From: Terriglobia bacterium
Lineage (GTDB): Bacteria > Acidobacteriota > Terriglobia > Acidiferrales > UBA7541
Length of the DNA stretch: 41,387 nt
NCBI GenBank assembly: GCA_020073705.1
Contig: JAIQES010000041.1
Coordinates: 1-41,387, forward strand
Direction of reading: 5' to 3'
Within the stretch, counting starts at the first letter, position 1. Each line of letters opens with the position of its first letter. A model generated the notes under the pieces. It was not told the origin of the DNA and ran no database searches. It saw only the letters and a list, made by a program, of their open reading frames with translations. Of this stretch, positions 18,822 to 41,387 are shown one piece after another. A program made the position numbers and the translations under genes.

Positions 18822-19382
18822 GGCGGACAGGCCGGGTGATCGCTGGGCTGGCCTTCGTAAGAAGACCGGCCGGGAGGAAAGTCCGGACACCGTAGTTCTG
18901 GTCGGGCACGTCGGGGACTAAAGTCCTCGGCGCAAACCGCCTCGGACTAAAGGGCAACGCGCCTGGTAACGCCAGGGGACCGAGTCTCTTCACGGTAAGC
19001 GCAAGCAAACCGCGCGGGTTCGGTCACGGAAAGTGCCACAGAAAATAAACCGCCGGTGCAATTCGCCTCGGTGACCGGCTGGAGGAAAACCTTCAGCGGG
19101 TCTGATGATGGCCTACGCAAGTGGGCTGAAACAGGCGAGAGCGCAAGGTAAGGGTGAAACGGTGGGGTAAGAGCCCACCGCGTCCCGAGCAATCGGGACG
19201 GCACGGCAAACCCCGCGTGGTGCAAGGCCAAATAGGAGGGGAGAGCTGGCCCAGCTCGTTATGACCCTCGGGTAGGCTGCTGGAGTCCCGGTGCGAACCT
19301 GGACCTAGAGGAATGATCACTGCGGTGCGTGGTTGCCATTATCCACGAGCCGAACAGAATCCGGCTTACAGGCCTGTCCGCC
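18822..19382 (+). ncRNA. rnpB: RNase P RNA (bacterial type A, enlarged)
   Basis: Catalytic RNA that removes tRNA 5' leaders. The ends form a perfect 12-bp P1 helix: GGCGGACAGGCC at 18822-18833 and its exact complement at 19371-19382. Conserved blocks are GAGGAAAGTCCGGA (18874-18887, CR-I), AGGTAAGGGTGAAA followed by GTAAGAGCCCACCGC, GCAAGGCCAAATAGG, GGGTAGGCTGCTGGAG and CAGAATCCGGCTTA near the 3' end. At about 561 nt it is some 180 nt longer than the ~380-nt E. coli RNA. The extra length lies in the specificity half: between CR-I and the CGCCTGGTAACGCC hairpin, after that hairpin, and in the P12 arm. A run of six T follows at 19389-19394. Confidence 0.96.
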
Positions 19383-19488
19383 ATTAAGTTTTTTATTGTG
19401 CATAGTTTCTAGTTCGGTCTCCGAGAAATTGCCGGCGATCGTGCAATATTTGTGCAATTGGTTTTCTCCAAGCCTTCGCCATTTTCCA

Positions 19489-19812
19489 TTATGCGCCAGC
19501 CCGGTCTCGCAGTTCCCTTACAAACGGCGCGTAATGCTTCTCGATTGTCGCCACGGTATCACCTAAGAGCTTCGCGAGGTCGTAGGGGCTGCCTCCTCTA
19601 GCCAGCATGTCTACCGCGAAGGTACCTCGGTAGCGGTGAGGGTGTGCATCAGGGACGCCGGCGCGCTTCCCCAAGGCGAGCATCCGCTCGTAGAGTCGAG
19701 GACGGGTAAGCGCCTTGCCGTTCCTGGGATTCAACAGAACGCGCTCTTCGGGAAATGGGTTGCGGCGCTCGCGTTCGGCCTCAAGCGCGAAAAGCAACTC
19801 TGTCGCGCGCAC
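19489..19812 (-). pseudogene. Tyrosine recombinase (integrase) C-terminal remnant
   Basis: An open frame of 107 codons matching only the last third of a phage-type integrase catalytic domain. HPHRYRGTFAVDML contains the box II HxxR, and LLGDTVATIEKHYAPF contains the late His/Trp-position and the nucleophilic Tyr. The N-terminal arm/core-binding domains and the first catalytic Arg are absent: the preceding gene's stop codon lies only one base upstream, so the 5' part has been deleted. It points back toward rnpB, whose 3' end is 107 bp away, as expected for an integrase beside its attachment site. It is probably non-functional. Confidence 0.8.
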
Positions 19813-22201: not shown

Positions 22202-22822
22202 TCATAAAGGCGGCCGCTCCGTTATCTCCAACGACCCATGACTGGCGGACGCGATCGCTGCCCGTCTGACGGTCCCTTCCCCTAGTCCCAGCTTTTTCCC
22301 GACAGTCGACCAGGAATCTCCTTCTGCGCGAAGGCGCGCAATCTCCGCCGGGTCAACGGACACTCTTGGCCGCCCGAGACACTTGCCTTTGGCCTTGGCA
22401 GCGGCCAGTCCCGAACGGACGCGGTCGCGAATCAACTCCCTCTCAAACTCGGCTATGGATGCGAAGATGCCAAACACCAGACGCCCGTTAGGGGTGGACG
22501 TGTCGACTCCTTCATGCAGGCTCACGAAGTCGATCCCGAGCGCCCGGAACTCCTCGAGGGCGTTGACGAGTTGACGCGGGCTTCGCGCGAACCGGTCGTA
22601 CCGGCAGACCACCACAGCGTCGACGGCACGTTTCCCGCAGAGGGTCAGCAGCTGATCCAGGGCCGGACGGCACTCCTTGGCGCCGCTCACTCCGGTATCC
22701 ACGAACTCCCCCGCCACCTTCCACCCACGCTTTTCACAATAGGCGCGCAGGTCGATAAGCTGCATCTCCGGGTTCTGGCCGTTATTTGTGCTAACCCTCG
22801 CGTAGATTGCTGCCCGCTTCAT
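22202..22822 (-). CDS. Serine recombinase (resolvase/invertase family)
   Basis: A 206-residue small serine recombinase. The catalytic domain starts KRAAIYARVST with nucleophile Ser11, followed by AVVVCRYDRFARSPRQLVNALEEF (conserved Arg cluster) and GRLVFGIFASIAEFERELIRDRVRSG. A helix-turn-helix DNA-binding tail follows (EIARLRAEGDSWSTVGKKLGLGEGTVRRA). Length is typical of Tn3-type resolvases and DNA invertases. ATG 22822 is preceded by GGGAGG at good spacing. Its first four bases overlap the stop of the upstream GG-repeat gene (ATGA), suggesting coupled translation. No res sites or cognate transposase were recognised nearby. Confidence 0.93.
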   Translation of the reverse strand: MKRAAIYARVSTNNGQNPEMQLIDLRAYCEKRGWKVAGEFVDTGVSGAKECRPALDQLLTLCGKRAVDAVVVCRYDRFARSPRQLVNALEEFRALGIDFVSLHEGVDTSTPNGRLVFGIFASIAEFERELIRDRVRSGLAAAKAKGKCLGRPRVSVDPAEIARLRAEGDSWSTVGKKLGLGEGTVRRAAIASASHGSLEITERPPL

Positions 22823-23028
22823 CGCTGGCCTCCCTTTTTTCTCGTAGGCCGCCCTCCCAGCTTTCCCCACCGTGACAGCTGTTTCCTGGAGTACTGCTGC
22901 GCGCGTGCCAAACCGCCCAAACGCGCCCATGCCTTTCGTTGTGCGGCGGTCGTTTTTCGAGCCCGAGCCTTGCCCCCGAGTTTGCCGAGAGCCGCAGCAT
23001 GAGGGTTCTTGGTCGCCACACACTGCAT
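22819..23028 (-). CDS. Small basic GG-repeat protein coupled to the resolvase
   Basis: A 69-residue, strongly basic protein containing three spaced copies of an (A/K)LGG-type motif (AALGKLGGKARA, WARLGGLARA, WGKLGGRPTR) separated by about 20 residues. The pattern resembles small acidobacterial proteins and KGG-type stress proteins, but no function is established that can be cited here. Start taken at ATG 23028 (MQCVATKN); ATG 23052 and an earlier GTG-type start are alternatives, none with a clear ribosome-binding site. Its TGA overlaps the resolvase ATG in an ATGA junction, the strongest sign that it is a real gene. Confidence 0.6.
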   Translation of the reverse strand: MQCVATKNPHAAALGKLGGKARARKTTAAQRKAWARLGGLARAQQYSRKQLSRWGKLGGRPTRKKGGQR

Positions 23029-23685: not shown

Positions 23686-23694
23686 AACCGGATA

Positions 23695-23725
23695 GGTCCC
23701 GAGAAACGGAATTATCGGAATGTGG
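23695..23725 (+). repeat. Interrupted palindrome, copy A1
   Basis: Left arm GGTCCCGAGAA and right arm TTATCGGAATGTGG flank a short centre. It belongs to the 34-bp repeat family described in the findings; here it is uninterrupted and directly preceded by GATA. It serves as the empty-site comparison for the copies disrupted by IS30-family elements at 27.0 and 41.2 kb. Confidence 0.75.
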
Positions 23726-23748
23726 CCCGAACCGACGTGGGGCAAAAG

Positions 23749-23782
23749 CCAGTTTCCGATAAGCCGACTTCTCAGGAGTTGG
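23749..23782 (-). repeat. Interrupted palindrome, copy A2
   Basis: Arms CCAGTTTCCGATAAG and (reverse complement) CCAACTCCTGAGAAG around a 4-bp centre CCGA. It lies 23 bp after copy A1, in the opposite relative orientation, just upstream of the methyltransferase gene. Confidence 0.75.
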
Positions 23783-23857
23783 CTCAGCCCGGATGTGTAC
23801 GGGTATTGATTTTATGCTTCCCCTGTGCGCTAGAATTGAGACACCCAAGGAGGCTCT

Positions 23858-24583
23858 ATCCCCATACTCCTCCCCTCTGATCTGGCGGCATTGCTCGAAG
23901 AGCAGAAGTCTTACTACGAGGCCCGAGCCACCGAGTACGACGAATGGTGGGAGAGGCGCGGCCGGTATGATCTGGGAGCAGAGGGAAACGCACTGTGGCG
24001 CGAAGAAATCCAAAAAGTCGAAGCGGTTTTCGACATGGCGCCGCTGCGCGGACACGTCCTGGAGCCTGCGGCCGGAACAGGCAACTGGACGCTCTACCTG
24101 ACGCGCCGAGCCGAAAAGGTTACGGTGTTGGATAATTCCCGGTCCATGATCGAAAAGAATCGCCGCCGGATCCAAGAAGCAGGATTACAGGGACGCGTGG
24201 ACTATGAGGAAACGGACTTGTTTTGTTGGCATCCCCGTGCCCGGTATGACGCCATATTCCTAGGTTTCTGGATTTCTCATCTGCCTTCCGCCGTCCTGGA
24301 TCCCTTTCTGCTCTTGATGGCCTCGGCGCTTAAGCCGGGCGGCTGTTTAGCCATTTTGGAGGGGCAACGGAATGGGAGGTTACGCAGCGCAACACAGGGA
24401 ACCTCTCGCTTGAACGATGAAATTGAACTCCGCACCCTCAACGATGGCCGGACGTTTCGCATTGTGAAGCGTTACGACGATCCTGAAGATTTAGCAAAGC
24501 GTCTGGAACGCGCTGGTCTAGATGCGCAGGTTGGTGCCAGCGGCGAGCAGTTCCTTTACGCCTTGGCCTTTTCTCCCAGCTAG
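23858..24583 (+). CDS. Class I SAM-dependent methyltransferase
   Basis: A Rossmann-fold methyltransferase of about 230-241 residues. Motif I is VLEPAAGTGNWT, the acidic end of strand 2 is VTVLDNSRSMI, and YDAIFLGFWISHLP with LKPGGCLAILEG marks later motifs. YYEARATEYDEWWERRG at the N terminus is typical of small-molecule or lipid methyltransferases; the acceptor is unknown. The start is unclear. AAGGAGG at 23847-23853 is a strong Shine-Dalgarno, but the in-frame codons at suitable distance are ATC 23858 and ATA 23864; the nearest conventional start is TTG 23891, 37 bp away. The gene lies between palindrome copies A2 and B. Confidence 0.85.
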   Translation: MPILLPSDLAALLEEQKSYYEARATEYDEWWERRGRYDLGAEGNALWREEIQKVEAVFDMAPLRGHVLEPAAGTGNWTLYLTRRAEKVTVLDNSRSMIEKNRRRIQEAGLQGRVDYEETDLFCWHPRARYDAIFLGFWISHLPSAVLDPFLLLMASALKPGGCLAILEGQRNGRLRSATQGTSRLNDEIELRTLNDGRTFRIVKRYDDPEDLAKRLERAGLDAQVGASGEQFLYALAFSPS

Positions 24584-24599
24584 AATTTTGGATTCTGTC

Positions 24600-24633
24600 C
24601 CACATTCCGATAAGCGGACTTCTCGGGACTTGG
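24600..24633 (-). repeat. Interrupted palindrome, copy B
   Basis: Arms CCACATTCCGATAAG and (reverse complement) CCAAGTCCCGAGAAG around centre CGGA; the best-formed copy. It starts 17 bp after the methyltransferase stop codon and separates that plus-strand gene from the two small minus-strand genes. Confidence 0.8.
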
Positions 24634-24678
24634 CGGCGCTTTCCTTATCTAGACCAACGATCCGGTCCTGCTGATTTC

Positions 24679-24930
24679 TCAACCGGCAGCGGATTCTGCG
24701 GATGCCTCTGCCTGCGCTTCCGTTGTCGTACCGACAGACTTGACCGTAATTTCGAGTCCATTCTTGTTCATATCGAATCTCTGTTTCCGGTCTAAGCCTT
24801 TGACAAACTCACGTGCTGCCTTAGCAACGGCTCCGGGAAGACTCGATGCATCCAATTTGACCGTCGATTCTATCGTTCCTTCATTTCGATCTCGATAGCG
24901 AAATTGCACCTCAAAGGTTTTCATGCTCAT
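24679..24930 (-). CDS. Small hypothetical protein, 83 residues
   Basis: No family was recognised. The protein begins MSMKTFEVQFRYRDR and reads like a single small alpha/beta domain: an N-terminal strand, a polar strand (EGTIESTVKL), an amphipathic helix (GAVAKAAREFVKGL) and another strand (GLEITVKSVG), ending in an Ala/Glu-rich tail. It has no signal peptide. GAGG lies 6 nt before ATG 24930, a good ribosome-binding site. It forms a minus-strand pair with the lipoprotein gene 82 bp upstream, both enclosed between palindrome copies B and C. Confidence 0.6.
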   Translation of the reverse strand: MSMKTFEVQFRYRDRNEGTIESTVKLDASSLPGAVAKAAREFVKGLDRKQRFDMNKNGLEITVKSVGTTTEAQAEASAESAAG

Positions 24931-25012
24931 AACCTCCCTCTTCTAACGATTAAAACAAGAAAACGACTCGCGCTTTCCAAAACAGGCGCGGGTCATAAAC
25001 CTGCCGAGACCT

Positions 25013-25297
25013 TTAACTCCGACGACGCTTTCGGCTCGAAGCTTTCGTTTGGGAGCGCTTCGTCTTGTGAGGCTTAATTCTTGCCTTGAGCACCTCGTTC
25101 TCTTTCGCTAGCGCATCGCGGGCAGCTGTCACCGTCTCAAGGTTATTTCCCAATTGGCCGTTCTCTTTCTGAAGTTCCGCCACCTGAGCCTTCAATTGCT
25201 CGTTCTCTTGCAGAGTTTTTGTGTCCTTGCAAGCAGTCAAGGACAAACTCAGCAATACCGCCACAGCAAGGGTCGCCAAAGTGTTTTTACGAGTCAT
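25013..25297 (-). CDS. Small coiled-coil lipoprotein
   Basis: A 94-residue protein with a lipoprotein signal: positively charged start, hydrophobic stretch and lipobox LTAC with Cys at about residue 23. The mature part is a heptad-rich coiled coil (TLQENEQLKAQVAELQKE, then LAKENEVLKARI) ending in a very basic tail (KTKRSQTKASSRKRRRS). It resembles Lpp-like envelope tethers in layout but not in sequence. The basic tail could contact the peptidoglycan or nucleic acid; this is speculation. AAGGATG precedes ATG 25297. Confidence 0.65.
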   Translation of the reverse strand: MTRKNTLATLAVAVLLSLSLTACKDTKTLQENEQLKAQVAELQKENGQLGNNLETVTAARDALAKENEVLKARIKPHKTKRSQTKASSRKRRRS

Positions 25298-25410
25298 GCG
25301 TCATCCTTATAAAAAATTTGAACTGCAATTGGTACAACCGATAGCGGGTGAGGAGGGAAGACACCGCAGACAACGTCAACAGCGTAATGGAGTTTCTTAG
25401 ATGGCGCAAG

Positions 25411-25446
25411 CCTGATAAGCGGCATTCTTAGTAACTGAGAAACTGG
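25411..25446 (-). repeat. Interrupted palindrome, degenerate copy C1
   Basis: Contains CCTGATAAGCGGC and CTGAGAAACTGG, matching arm pieces of the family but with about 10 extra bases in the centre. It lies immediately next to copy C2. Confidence 0.4.
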
Positions 25447-25480
25447 CCACATTCCGAGAAGACGACTTATCAGGAAGTGG
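25447..25480 (-). repeat. Interrupted palindrome, copy C2
   Basis: Arms CCACATTCCGAGAAG and (reverse complement) CCACTTCCTGATAAG around centre ACGA. It sits in the intergenic gap between the lipoprotein gene and the GGDEF gene. Confidence 0.75.
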
Positions 25481-25576
25481 CAGCGAGGGGTACCTCGGAG
25501 CTGTGGTTCTTATCTTTATCATCGGAGTTAGAACTCTCGACAAGAGCCTGAAGCGCATAGGAAGCATCGTTTACAT

Positions 25577-26854
25577 CTACATCGCTACGGACAACTTCTG
25601 GCCAATACGGCTCTTTGTCATGTACAGGACTCGGTCCGCTGCGCCCACTAGGGCTTCGAGTGTTTCGTCGTGCGCGTAGGCGGCAACGCCCACGCTTACG
25701 GAAATAGGAGGCAGCTCCCCGTCTCTCGCTACGTGGTCGCAGATACGGCGTGCCACTTCTTGCGCCGCATCCATTCCGGTCTCGGGCAAAATGAGTGCGA
25801 ACTCGTCTCCTCCGTACCGCGCGGCCGTGTCAATAGCGCGGGAATGAATGCGAAGCAAGTTCGCCACTCGGCAGAGCGCTCTACTTCCCACTAAGTGTCC
25901 GTAGTTGTCGTTGATCTTTTTCAAACCGTCCAGGTCCAGTAGTAAGAAAGCGAAGGATCTCCCTGTGCGCTGGGAGCGTTGGATCTCAGCCTCCAGTGCG
26001 TCCATTAGCCTTCGATGATTGGCCAACCCAGTCAAGGGATCACTCACCGACAACTGGCGGACGTTCTCGAACAAATGTACGTCGTCGAGAAGCGCTCCCC
26101 CCAGCAGCAAGGCATAACTGCTGAATTGAAGGATTACCGCGAAAGCGAAGGGGGCGTCGAGCCTTTGCTCGGACTGACTGGCAGCAAGACAACACGCGAC
26201 ATTCAATGCCGTTGCAAAGCAGAGGAAACGATCGAACGGGGAAGTAGTGTGCTTCAAGCGGTGATAATATCCAATCGTTGCGAAAGAAAAGAGTCCCGCT
26301 GAGAGCAGATTGCTGGGCCGTGGAAAAAGCCCTCCTGGATGAACTAACAGATCGTCAGGCAATCGTCCGTGGACGATGCTGAGTAACGACGTCGACAAAA
26401 TAACACCCGTAAGAGCCACAGCTATCTCGCGGCCGGGATGGAGTGCTGTGGGAAGGCGCTGCTCCACGAACAGTGCGGCTACAAGCAACACGGCCAGTAC
26501 CGTCCGGCCGATCACCCATGTCATTGGGTCTTTCAGGCTTGCGTCGGAAGCTAGAACTTGGAAATAAACAAGGCTCGAGCTAATCAGAGTGATGCCAACG
26601 ATTACGAAACCGCATGCGAGGACAAGCGGAAGACGGTCGCGCGTTCCCAGGAACCTTACCAGTGCGGCAGCTGCAATAATGACTGCAAGAAGCCCAGTCG
26701 TAATTTGGAGCTGCTCGTAAAGCAGACGGTCGAGGGTACCCGGGAGACGTCGCAGCGCCCAAGCCAGTGCCAGGGTACCGCTCTCCCCCATAAGGAACAG
26801 CCAGACTACTCTAGGTCTCTTCAGGAAAGTCCAGATTCTCTCAATTCTGCTCAT
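25577..26854 (-). CDS. Membrane-anchored GGDEF diguanylate cyclase
   Basis: Makes the second messenger cyclic di-GMP. The 425-residue protein has seven or so hydrophobic helices in its first ~240 residues, a membrane sensor of MASE type whose ligand is unknown. A short helical linker (LFENVRQLSVSDPLTGLANHRRL) enters the GGDEF domain. The active-site motif is intact (ARYGGDEFALI), and an inhibitory I-site RxxD (RAID) lies exactly five residues before GGDEF, so product inhibition is expected. LDLDGLKKINDNYGH supplies the metal-binding Asp. The gene is flanked by palindrome copies C2 and D/E and shares no obvious pathway with its neighbours. Confidence 0.92.
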   Translation of the reverse strand: MSRIERIWTFLKRPRVVWLFLMGESGTLALAWALRRLPGTLDRLLYEQLQITTGLLAVIIAAAALVRFLGTRDRLPLVLACGFVIVGITLISSSLVYFQVLASDASLKDPMTWVIGRTVLAVLLVAALFVEQRLPTALHPGREIAVALTGVILSTSLLSIVHGRLPDDLLVHPGGLFPRPSNLLSAGLFSFATIGYYHRLKHTTSPFDRFLCFATALNVACCLAASQSEQRLDAPFAFAVILQFSSYALLLGGALLDDVHLFENVRQLSVSDPLTGLANHRRLMDALEAEIQRSQRTGRSFAFLLLDLDGLKKINDNYGHLVGSRALCRVANLLRIHSRAIDTAARYGGDEFALILPETGMDAAQEVARRICDHVARDGELPPISVSVGVAAYAHDETLEALVGAADRVLYMTKSRIGQKLSVAM

Positions 26855-27008
26855 ACCCGGCTCTCACGCTCGGTGGGCCCCTCTAAATGAAGATTACGTC
26901 CAACTGCTGTCCTAGGCGAAGTCTGATTTCTGAATTTGTTTCCTGTGGAGCAGTGATCCAGATCACACGTTTTCTAAGCTAAGAAAGCTGCTTTTCCGCG
27001 CCTAATCT

Positions 27009-27026
27009 GGATAGGTCCCGGTAAAC
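27009..27026 (+). repeat. Interrupted palindrome, left half (copy D)
   Basis: GGATAGGTCCCGGTAAAC matches the left half of copy A1 (GGATAGGTCCCGAGAAAC) at 16 of 18 positions and stops exactly where the IS30-family remnant begins. The corresponding right half lies 207 bp further on. Confidence 0.65.
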
Positions 27027-27233
27027 GGTGCCAGCTCAACCGGTCGATGCAACACCCTTTAATGAGTTGATCCGACAATACTTCCTCTAGGGAACCGATC
27101 TATAGGGCTGTACTCAATCAGAACCTAAACAGGGCAGTGTTCCGTTCACATCAACGCCCTTGAACGAATTTAGCTTCGTAGACTCCTGCAGGTGGACTTT
27201 GAACTAGTGTTGCGACGACCCATTGAGACCGCC
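27027..27233 (+). mobile_element. 207-bp internally deleted IS30-family element remnant
   Basis: Both ends form an imperfect ~30-bp inverted repeat: 27027-27056 contains CTCAACCGGTCGATGCAACA and the complement of 27204-27233 contains CTCAATGGGTCGTCGCAACA. Between them are decayed pieces of an IS30-type transposase C terminus: ELIRQYFL-stop-GTDL near 27072-27112, matching LLRQYFPKRTDL of the better-preserved copy at the right window edge, and VATTH-stop at 27212-27226, matching TVAMTH-stop. Most of the gene is deleted and stop codons interrupt the rest, so it cannot move by itself. Confidence 0.7.
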
Positions 27234-27235
27234 GG

Positions 27236-27251
27236 GATTATCGGAATGTGG
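27236..27251 (+). repeat. Interrupted palindrome, right half (copy E)
   Basis: GATTATCGGAATGTGG is the right half of the repeat, identical to copy A1 over TTATCGGAATGTGG. Together with copy D it reconstitutes one full palindrome once the IS30-family remnant is removed. Confidence 0.65.
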
Positions 27252-36186: not shown

Positions 36187-36828
36187 GTAATTCCCGGAGA
36201 CTCGCTTCGGAACATTACGTTCCGCGCATCGAGCGGTTGTCCCGCTCAAGGCACCGTGGCGTCTCCTGCCCGGTTGCCGGACTCGGTTTAATCCAAGTCG
36301 CTCGTGATGCTTTCAACAACATAACGCCGCTTCTAGGTATGCGGGGAAGTTCTAGCCGGTGGGCGCCAACGGTTACATCAATGTGTGATGTGGCTCAGTG
36401 CGTTTGCCTGAGAACAGCTGTACAAAGGCCGTGGATGACGGATGGACCCACGGATGGGGACCGTCACTAGGAAAGCGGTCCTGATGGACTCAAGTCCTCA
36501 ACTCATCCGCTTGTAACCATCTCTCTCCGGGAGCAGCGGTCAGAAGAGCGAAGCCGTTAGAGCAGTACCTCCACTTTCGACGCACCGACCATACCGGTCG
36601 GAGTTTGCTGGTCGCTGCTCCTTTCTTGCTTGGCGACGGTGGCTCAACTGGAAACTTCAGCGTCTCGTTTGGAGCAGCTCTCAAAATGGTTGGGGACAAA
36701 CTTATGTGGCAGGAGCCTGCTGCGAACAAAGTCGCAATCATCGAGCCTGGGGAACTGGTGCAGTGATGTCTGCCGCTCATCGAGCTAAGAAGTGCTGTTG
36801 CTGACCGTAGTCGCAAACATTTTGTAGC

Positions 36829-40860: not shown

Positions 40861-41202
40861 TTATCCGGGATTTCCATTTTGACTTCCCGGCCGACCGATA
40901 ACGTACACCCAACCCCGTCGGTCTGCAATGGGCCAGCCAGATTTTTGAGTGCAGAGCCTCTCTGACGGCCGCGGCAAAATCTCAAAGCCAAACACTGACG
41001 CTTCTCCCACCCATTCCTCAAACACTTTTCCTCCTCCAGTGTCGCTCAGCACCGAAATCTGTTTCGGTCTACGGCTGCCTGTACTGTTAATGATGGGACC
41101 ACCGCCGCGATCCTTCGAGTAAACACACATCGGGACCCGAACAACGGGCCTTTTGAAGACCTCCTGATAAACGCGCCATTGGAAAGTAGCAATGGGCAGC
41201 AT
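40861..41202 (-). CDS. Hypothetical protein, 113 residues, adjacent to IS30-family insertion
   Basis: No family was recognised. The frame MLPIATFQWRVYQEVFKRPV continues through VPMCVYSKDRGGG to a stop at 40861. Amino-acid composition is protein-like, with a possible small beta domain. The ATG at 41202 is inside the palindrome half-site next to the transposon end, so either the upstream part of a longer gene was cut away by the insertion or the frame is chance. No ribosome-binding site is visible. Confidence 0.3.
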   Translation of the reverse strand: MLPIATFQWRVYQEVFKRPVVRVPMCVYSKDRGGGPIINSTGSRRPKQISVLSDTGGGKVFEEWVGEASVFGFEILPRPSERLCTQKSGWPIADRRGWVYVIGRPGSQNGNPG

Positions 41203-41218
41203 AGGTCCCGAGAAACAA
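41201..41218 (-). repeat. Interrupted palindrome half-site (copy F) beside IS30-family element
   Basis: ATAGGTCCCGAGAAACAA matches the left half of copy A1 (ATAGGTCCCGAGAAAC identical over 16 bases) and ends where the IS30-family terminal repeat (GGTGGTCTCAATGGG) begins. The other half, if present, is beyond the window. Confidence 0.65.
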
Positions 41219-41387
41219 GGTGGTCTCAATGGGTCATTGCAACAGTGGCCTGGAGTCTACTCTCCGGAGTTTCAAAGCCCAACGTTTTTCTCGGGCGTTG
41301 ATTTAAACGCAGCGCTACCTTGTCGAGATCTGCTTGAGAGTAGCCAGACAAGTCGGTTCTTTTAGGGAAGTACTGTCGCAGCAGCCC
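41219..41387 (-). mobile_element. IS30-family insertion sequence, partial (runs off window)
   Basis: The terminal repeat at 41219-41245 (GGTGGTCTCAATGGGTCATT then GCAACA) resembles the ends of the 207-bp remnant at 27.0 kb. The transposase gene is read inward from the right window edge. The other end is outside the window. Confidence 0.7.
41226..41387 (-). CDS. IS30-family transposase, C-terminal 53 residues
   Basis: DDE transposase fragment read on the minus strand: GLLRQYFPKRTDLSGYSQAD, then LDKVALRLNQRPRKTLGFET, then PESRLQATVAMTH-stop. This is the conserved C terminus of IS30 transposases, where the catalytic Glu lies shortly upstream and RPRKTLG(F/W)ETP is nearly invariant. The frame is intact in the visible part; upstream sequence is missing. 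The same gene end, heavily decayed, occurs at 27.2 kb. Confidence 0.88.
   Translation of the reverse strand, partial: GLLRQYFPKRTDLSGYSQADLDKVALRLNQRPRKTLGFETPESRLQATVAMTH

Follow-up and report, generated by a model that had tools for sequence, protein, structure and literature searches.

The window, a stretch of 41,387 nucleotides forming contig JAIQES010000041.1 of the Terriglobia bacterium assembly GCA_020073705.1, carries at 23695-27251 an array of short interrupted palindromes that probably belongs to a chromosomal gene-cassette system, similar to dif modules and integrons but with recombinase sites of its own. The palindromes would be core sites at which a site-specific recombinase acts, in all likelihood one of the tyrosine type; they would bracket single genes as modules, and two classes of site centre would decide which sites oppose each other. 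The systems that, to our knowledge, shift single genes as site-bracketed modules are integrons and Xer dif modules, and no earlier description of the present system was found in the open-access literature searched.

All copies of the 34-bp repeat that an initial annotation of the window had named are present, amounting to five copies plus one copy split by an insertion (Table 1). The annotation had placed a 4-bp centre between the arms; a layout of a 14-bp left (L) arm, a 6-bp centre and a 14-bp right (R) arm fits better. The consensus sequences of the L and R arms are CCAnnTTCCGAKAA and TTMTCRGGAnTTGG, respectively, and the centres fall into two classes, A (GnnGAC) and B (KnCCGT). Because the L and R arms consistently differ, each site has a direction. 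The copies had been listed singly, and all of them exist, but those at 23691 and 23748 and those at 25404 and 25446 form facing double sites. The copy at 27009/27236 is a single B site with approximately 204 bp of an IS30-type miniature insertion sequence (IS) inside it and CGG on either side. The half-site noted at 41201 is also present: it is what is left, the R arm, of a B-like site interrupted by an IS30-type element whose sequence continues past the contig end; the segment at 41205-41387 is 89% identical to locus L038. Using the core pattern with up to three mismatches, the window gave 8 strand-hits against 0.22 expected, a number reached in 0 of 100 shuffles, and the whole genome gave 47+47 strand-hits, compared with 2+0 when the pattern was reversed.

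The site was modelled as a 36-position covariance model, and matches were counted at E up to 0.01. The search returned 63 matches in the host metagenome-assembled genome (MAG) and 64, 58 and 57 in three congeners (242 in all), while 42 of the 89 genomes of the family held a site match at E up to 0.001 under stricter filters. A degenerate A core matched 44 stretches in a named genome collection, 39 of which were Acidobacteriota by title (subdivision 2, ‘Candidatus Acidiferrum’, Terriglobia and others). The other five, from outside the Acidobacteriota with one match each, may be due to chance, given that about 15 random matches were estimated for the pattern. The exact A core had no match in viral contigs. 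The arm sequences change between genera.

Placement and direction were counted for sites scoring at least 22 in the fetched loci of seven genomes, with lower-scoring sites left out; most of the loci had been fetched on account of their site matches, and genes were called by our own codon scoring. As described initially for the window, the sites are intergenic: 0 of 177 shared at least 18 bp with a predicted gene, in loci whose coding fraction is 0.65. For neighbours spaced up to 3.5 kb apart, sites of the same class were direct repeats in 50 of 53 pairs, whereas sites of different classes were inverted in 36 of 38 pairs, with the R arms inward in 34 of these 36. A single direction rule held for 86 of the 91 neighbour pairs (p = 4e-20), including all 23 of those in the host. 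The arrays themselves also tend to be directional. Among arrays of at least two sites with a visible end, 18 started with A, 6 with B and 3 with BA, and 23 ended with B, 4 with A and 3 with BA, an A-first and B-last tendency (p = 1.8e-5 on the A and B counts). Many arrays consist of just A.B, the commonest two-site array, and longer ones include A.A.A.B, A.BA.BA.B and A.A.B.B.B.B. The 25 facing double sites had start-to-start distances of 37 (3 cases), 42 (1), 47-51 (16), 57-58 (4) and 61 bp (1); these spacings are close to helical steps, and common ancestry of the junctions may contribute too.

The 79 units, delimited like the sites of the covariation analysis with the same score cut-off of 22, ranged from 208 to 3367 bp, with a median of 774 bp, and a simple codon predictor found one gene in 32 of them, two in 4 and three in 2. 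Unit genes ran along the array in 28 cases and opposed it in 18. The cargo was diverse, including a methyltransferase, a GGDEF protein, a universal stress protein, a RidA-like protein, a metallo-beta-lactamase fold protein, a PEGA protein, an M50 protease with CBS, a kinase and others; each Pfam family occurred in at most 2 of the 44 unit proteins, one of which was an IS110 transposase.

Seven homologous flank pairs (159-372 bp), chosen by eye from 77 listed alignments, lose homology at a site. The alignments set aside were explained by IS30-type or IS110 elements, did not reach a site, or belonged to the syntenic pair of the host (G000) and G085; the sites in L111 and in L095 near 8286 are degenerate and unscored. 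In five of the seven pairs (L095/L097, L027/L034, L103/L108, L098/L106 and L038/L111, the first three each from a single genome), the side of the L arm is homologous and the far side unrelated, and in L026/L095 the R-arm side is the homologous one. In the remaining pair, L105/L106 (both G084), 190 bp are 100% identical across the R arm, the whole 6-bp centre and two bases, past which L105 has an intact L arm and L106 has unrelated DNA instead. This break is where a tyrosine recombinase would exchange strands.

Presence and absence at one place were seen at the trmD locus. Between an open reading frame (ORF) and trmD, the host carries three genes and five sites, one of them weak, whereas in G083 the orthologs of this ORF and of trmD are adjacent, approximately 116 bp apart and site-free even at a low threshold; the alignment to the trmD of the host begins approximately 26 bp inside the 3' end of the gene. 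The cassette behaviour proposed in the initial annotation is partly supported, in that no sites lie inside predicted genes and a site-bounded gene block found in the host is absent at the same place in G083, but no clean excision leaving one site was found. From the sequences compared, the trmD locus is a case of presence versus absence of an array rather than of clean excision. In G000 and G085, the start of an array beside the signal recognition particle RNA gene is 99.8% identical over 1,248 bp (L028:8058-9305 and L101:92-1339), and trmD is approximately 80% identical at the protein level; the near-identity suggests recent transfer, although it could be MAG cross-assembly.

The sites are also targets of IS elements. 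In L040, an element with an HTH_38 and rve transposase, which we take to be a member of the IS30 family, occupies an A site at its centre; B sites in the window, in L025, in L027 and elsewhere are split by miniature relatives of this element, and copies of an IS110-family element terminate inside sites. This targeting explains both the split copy at 27009/27236 and the half-site at 41201. The initial annotation had named preferred IS30 targets as an alternative, and IS30-type elements do insert into the palindromes, as does IS110; both kinds of element lie inside sites and not between them, so that the palindromes do not represent the termini of an ordinary IS. At L102:947-1190, an IS30-type miniature element has an R half of a B site on either side, the arrangement that recombination between two copies would leave.

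Some features were observed next to the sites. A conserved stretch of approximately 70-90 bp, lying 6-115 bp past the R end of B sites (L028:8862, L040:6430, L042:9796, L101:500 and L111:2022), precedes unrelated genes with 75-80% identity between loci and is possibly a shared promoter or another small repeat. The motif GGTRGTSG stands directly outside the L arm at several chromosome-facing ends of host arrays (L026, L027, L031, L033, L034 and L039), and CAAAAA or AAATT is often found outside the L arm at junctions. A tRNA was present in 7 of the 49 loci scanned, the closest lying 134 bp from a site (L032).

Conceivably, the ordinary XerC and XerD of the host recombine the A and B sites, which would then be dif modules as in Acinetobacter, without a dedicated enzyme. 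XerC-like and XerD proteins are indeed encoded in the host, and the layout agrees with dif in its arms, its 6-bp centre and its TAA-6-TTA inner bases. Genes flanked by inverted sites, arrays of them and IS elements targeting the sites are all described for dif modules (PMC6160057; PMC12907356). However, the arms of A and B vary between genera, and none of the A or B sites in 2.18 Mb of fetched sequence matched a dif consensus at up to two mismatches, although this is a weak argument because the lineage's own dif was not found. We consider the use of XerC and XerD unlikely.

The sites could also be terminal inverted repeats of one-gene non-autonomous transposons that were mobilized by a DDE-type transposase and inserted side by side. 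The prevalent A-gene-B arrangement, with its L arms outward, does resemble an element with 36-bp inverted ends, and G083 has no site at the place of the trmD insertion. On the other hand, direct A.A and B.B neighbours are equally common (50 of 91 pairs), the L105/L106 break falls at the site centre and not at the outer end, the facing double sites have stepped spacings, and no transposase shared by the units was seen among 44 unit proteins, the sole transposase being that of IS110. We therefore regard this origin as quite improbable.

The sites look like two protein half-sites in double-stranded DNA rather than hairpins, because the paired arm positions show no covariation: positions 13-24 were paired in 0.40 of 173 unique sites, against 0.45 expected from composition. 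An attC-like hairpin spanning the B/A double site was set aside in the same way, as 20 double sites showed no compensating changes. The reading in which the sites are repetitive extragenic palindromic (REP) sequences or bacterial interspersed mosaic elements (BIMEs), spread by a REP-associated tyrosine transposase (RAYT) and without a role in gene movement, is very improbable and was set aside, since the size, the intergenic place, the facing pairs of two types and one REP-type transposase-like gene in the genome (under the family cut-off) would suit it, but the arms do not covary, inspection found neither the GTAG nor the CGTC tag at one end by which PMC3733652 defines REP sequences (the site consensus ends in GCCA and TGGC), no site lies within the 4 kb fetched around the RAYT-like gene, and REP sequences would predict neither the direction rule nor the breakpoints.

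As to the enzyme, 13 PF00589 matches were found in the host, along with one resolvase and one Y1 transposase. Seven of the tyrosine recombinases of the host were scanned, and none was recognized as an IntI-grade integrase (the best reached 205.7 of the 265 bits required; shorter PF00589 fragments were outside the scan), and an IntI search across the family returned no match for the controls either, hence is uninformative. On modest evidence, a candidate for the enzyme acting on the sites is a 318-aa tyrosine recombinase (L104:7454-8407) encoded inside a G084 array, of which a 69% identical relative lies beside sites in L152. It retains the catalytic residues R, K, HxxR, H and Y and scores far under the XerC, XerD and IntI cut-offs. 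Its family was found in 23 of the 89 genomes and in four of 13 genera, and was present in 19 of the 49 genomes with sites versus 4 of the 40 without (p = 0.003, or 0.004 by the other site count); the corresponding values for an unrelated recombinase were 0.30 and 0.44, sites being counted as one or more. Of the 29 loci that include both the start of the candidate gene and the DNA preceding it, six carry a site no more than 520 bp upstream, in each case with the L arm proximal; among control genes of these loci, 4 of 129 do (p = 0.003). Eight plasmid records, from Granulicella, Acidisarcina, Paludibaculum and Deinococcus, also contain members of the family; in the three of these loci that were read, the site-like matches were all weak. 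A further member is encoded on a viral contig, 202 bp downstream of a site. When palindromes were sought without bias around the candidate recombinases, no consistent one emerged.

Other recombinase genes were also noted. A 213-aa tyrosine recombinase of contig C28, present in 18 of the 89 genomes, was rejected as a candidate, being near sites only in G083:C84 among the loci examined and showing no clear co-occurrence. A 45% identical relative of the serine resolvase of the window lies 2.1 kb from an array in G083 (L084:2931-3617), a tyrosine recombinase fragment at 19531-19773 (-) of the window scored 25.9 bits, under the cut-off, and did not match the candidate family, and another tyrosine recombinase lies 6.7 kb from the C47 array.

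In the mechanism that we propose, a recombinase would act on the sites by A x A and B x B exchange. Because sites of one class repeat in the same direction (A gene A, B gene B), a circular module would be cut out or taken in when two of them exchange, and because unlike sites are inverted with the R arms inward (A gene B), A and B would cap the array. The enzyme would belong to the L104:7454-8407 family and act in trans, its gene being either missing from this assembly or lost from the host genome. A more specific proposal, which we put forward tentatively and regard as possible rather than likely, is that of a third bacterial gene-cassette machine beside integrons and Xer modules, with a dedicated recombinase of the L104:7454-8407 type, double-stranded DNA as its substrate, two compatible site classes, A and B, and directional A-to-B capped arrays dispersed in the chromosomes of Acidobacteriota subdivision 2. 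A chromosomal system with its own sites, two centre classes and dozens of copies per genome would, in any case, give a mostly uncultured soil group a further way of altering its genomes one gene at a time, help explain MAG breaks at such loci and offer a recombinase with paired site classes for study. At least six host arrays (C2, C6, C15, C37, C66 and C77) lie within approximately 3 kb of a contig end, which repeats such as the sites and their IS elements would explain.

Several observations weigh against this interpretation. At the scoring threshold, the array of the window itself is BA.A.A, with the split B after it, and not A to B, and the simple codon predictor found no gene in 41 of the 79 units. 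At the trmD locus, G085 and G086 have different, site-free genes, indicating that variation arises by other means too. The comparison genomes are all draft MAGs, and no excision product or recombination event was seen among the genomes compared. The lox/FRT-type role that the initial annotation proposed for the palindromes is supported by the architecture, the direction rule and the homology breakpoints, but no recombination was observed, the serine resolvase is the only recombinase gene found near the array of the window, and the candidate family was not found at E up to 1e-25 in the host MAG or in three of five congeners. The co-occurrence statistics ignore phylogeny, and their contrast shrinks when at least two sites are counted (p = 0.07 and 0.014 for the candidate, 0.05 and 0.08 for the unrelated recombinase). 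No nearby site was found in 23 of the 29 candidate loci; of the six others, one had its site positioned by eye and two had been found via sites, and the other four (of 27) gave p = 0.03.

The sites, module genes and neighbouring features of the window are summarized in Table 1. The oxidoreductase downstream of the array is kept in relatives, whereas the left flank is not. Elsewhere in the window, a bacterial RNase P class A RNA was found at 18824-19384 (+) and an S-adenosylmethionine (SAM)-I/IV riboswitch at 36192-36315 (-), the latter barely over the threshold with 47.3 bits.

Table 1. Recombination-site candidates, module genes and associated features in the window.
Feature	Position	Strand	Remarks
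Serine resolvase, 668 bp outside array	22202..23023	-	PF00239, sole genome match
B-class site, left half of facing B/A double site	23691..23726	-	score 50
A-class site, right half of facing B/A double site	23748..23783	+	score 54; starts of the pair 57 bp apart
Module gene, SAM methyltransferase, 230 aa	23891..24583	+	Methyltransf_25, E 8.9e-15
A-class site, 16 bp past methyltransferase stop	24599..24634	+	score 57
Module gene, 83-aa protein	24679..24930	-	no Pfam match
Module gene, 94-aa protein	25013..25297	-	no Pfam match
Degenerate B-class site	25404..25439	-	score 17
A-class site	25446..25481	+	score 54
Module gene, GGDEF protein, 425 aa	25577..26854	-	GGDEF, E 8.4e-38
R half of split B site	27009..27028	-	sequence reading; repeat family D10
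IS30-type miniature element in centre of B site	27029..27232	.	relatives of ~90% identity inside other sites, such as L025 15194-15431; ends like those of the L040 IS
L half of split B site, CGG repeated	27233..27251	-	sequence reading; repeat family D2
R half of B-like site, cut by IS30-type end at contig end	41203..41220	-	sequence reading

With REP sequences and BIMEs, the sites share the form of short, intergenic, imperfect palindromes of two types, some of them facing, but differ in lacking the tag, a linked RAYT gene and covariation and in showing an ordered direction and homology breaks. They differ from the terminal repeats of insertion sequences in that IS30-type and IS110 elements sit within them. 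The likeness to integrons and to clusters of attC sites lacking integron integrases (CALINs), which are built on IntI, attI and attC, lies in the directional arrays of unrelated single genes and in arrays without a nearby integrase. At attI the recombinase is transcribed away from the site, and the candidate recombinase is likewise transcribed away from its site, with the L arm proximal. Unlike in integrons, the GTTRRRY core is absent by inspection (the consensus is GACTTMTC in A and CGTTTMTC in B), neither the unique sites nor the double sites show the covariation of a hairpin, genes are mixed in direction, and arrays are capped by inverted sites. As the GTTRRRY core and attC covariation were not found, no IntI was recognized and the use of Xer is only putative, we place the system under neither integrons nor dif. 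The dif/pdif modules of Acinetobacter, on which XerC-XerD act, also have two inverted half-sites with a 6-bp spacer (here 14+6+14), and they share with the present arrays the inverted sites around genes, the module arrays, the homologous modules in differing contexts and the targeting by IS elements (PMC6160057; PMC12907356). The arms, the length, the two centre classes with their A-to-B direction, the many direct-repeat neighbours, the dozens of chromosomal copies and the Acidobacteriota host are different here. In dif modules the inverted sites around genes alternate; here most cross-class neighbours are inverted (36 of 38) and most same-class neighbours direct (50 of 53). Overall, by analogy, the system would appear to work most like dif modules.

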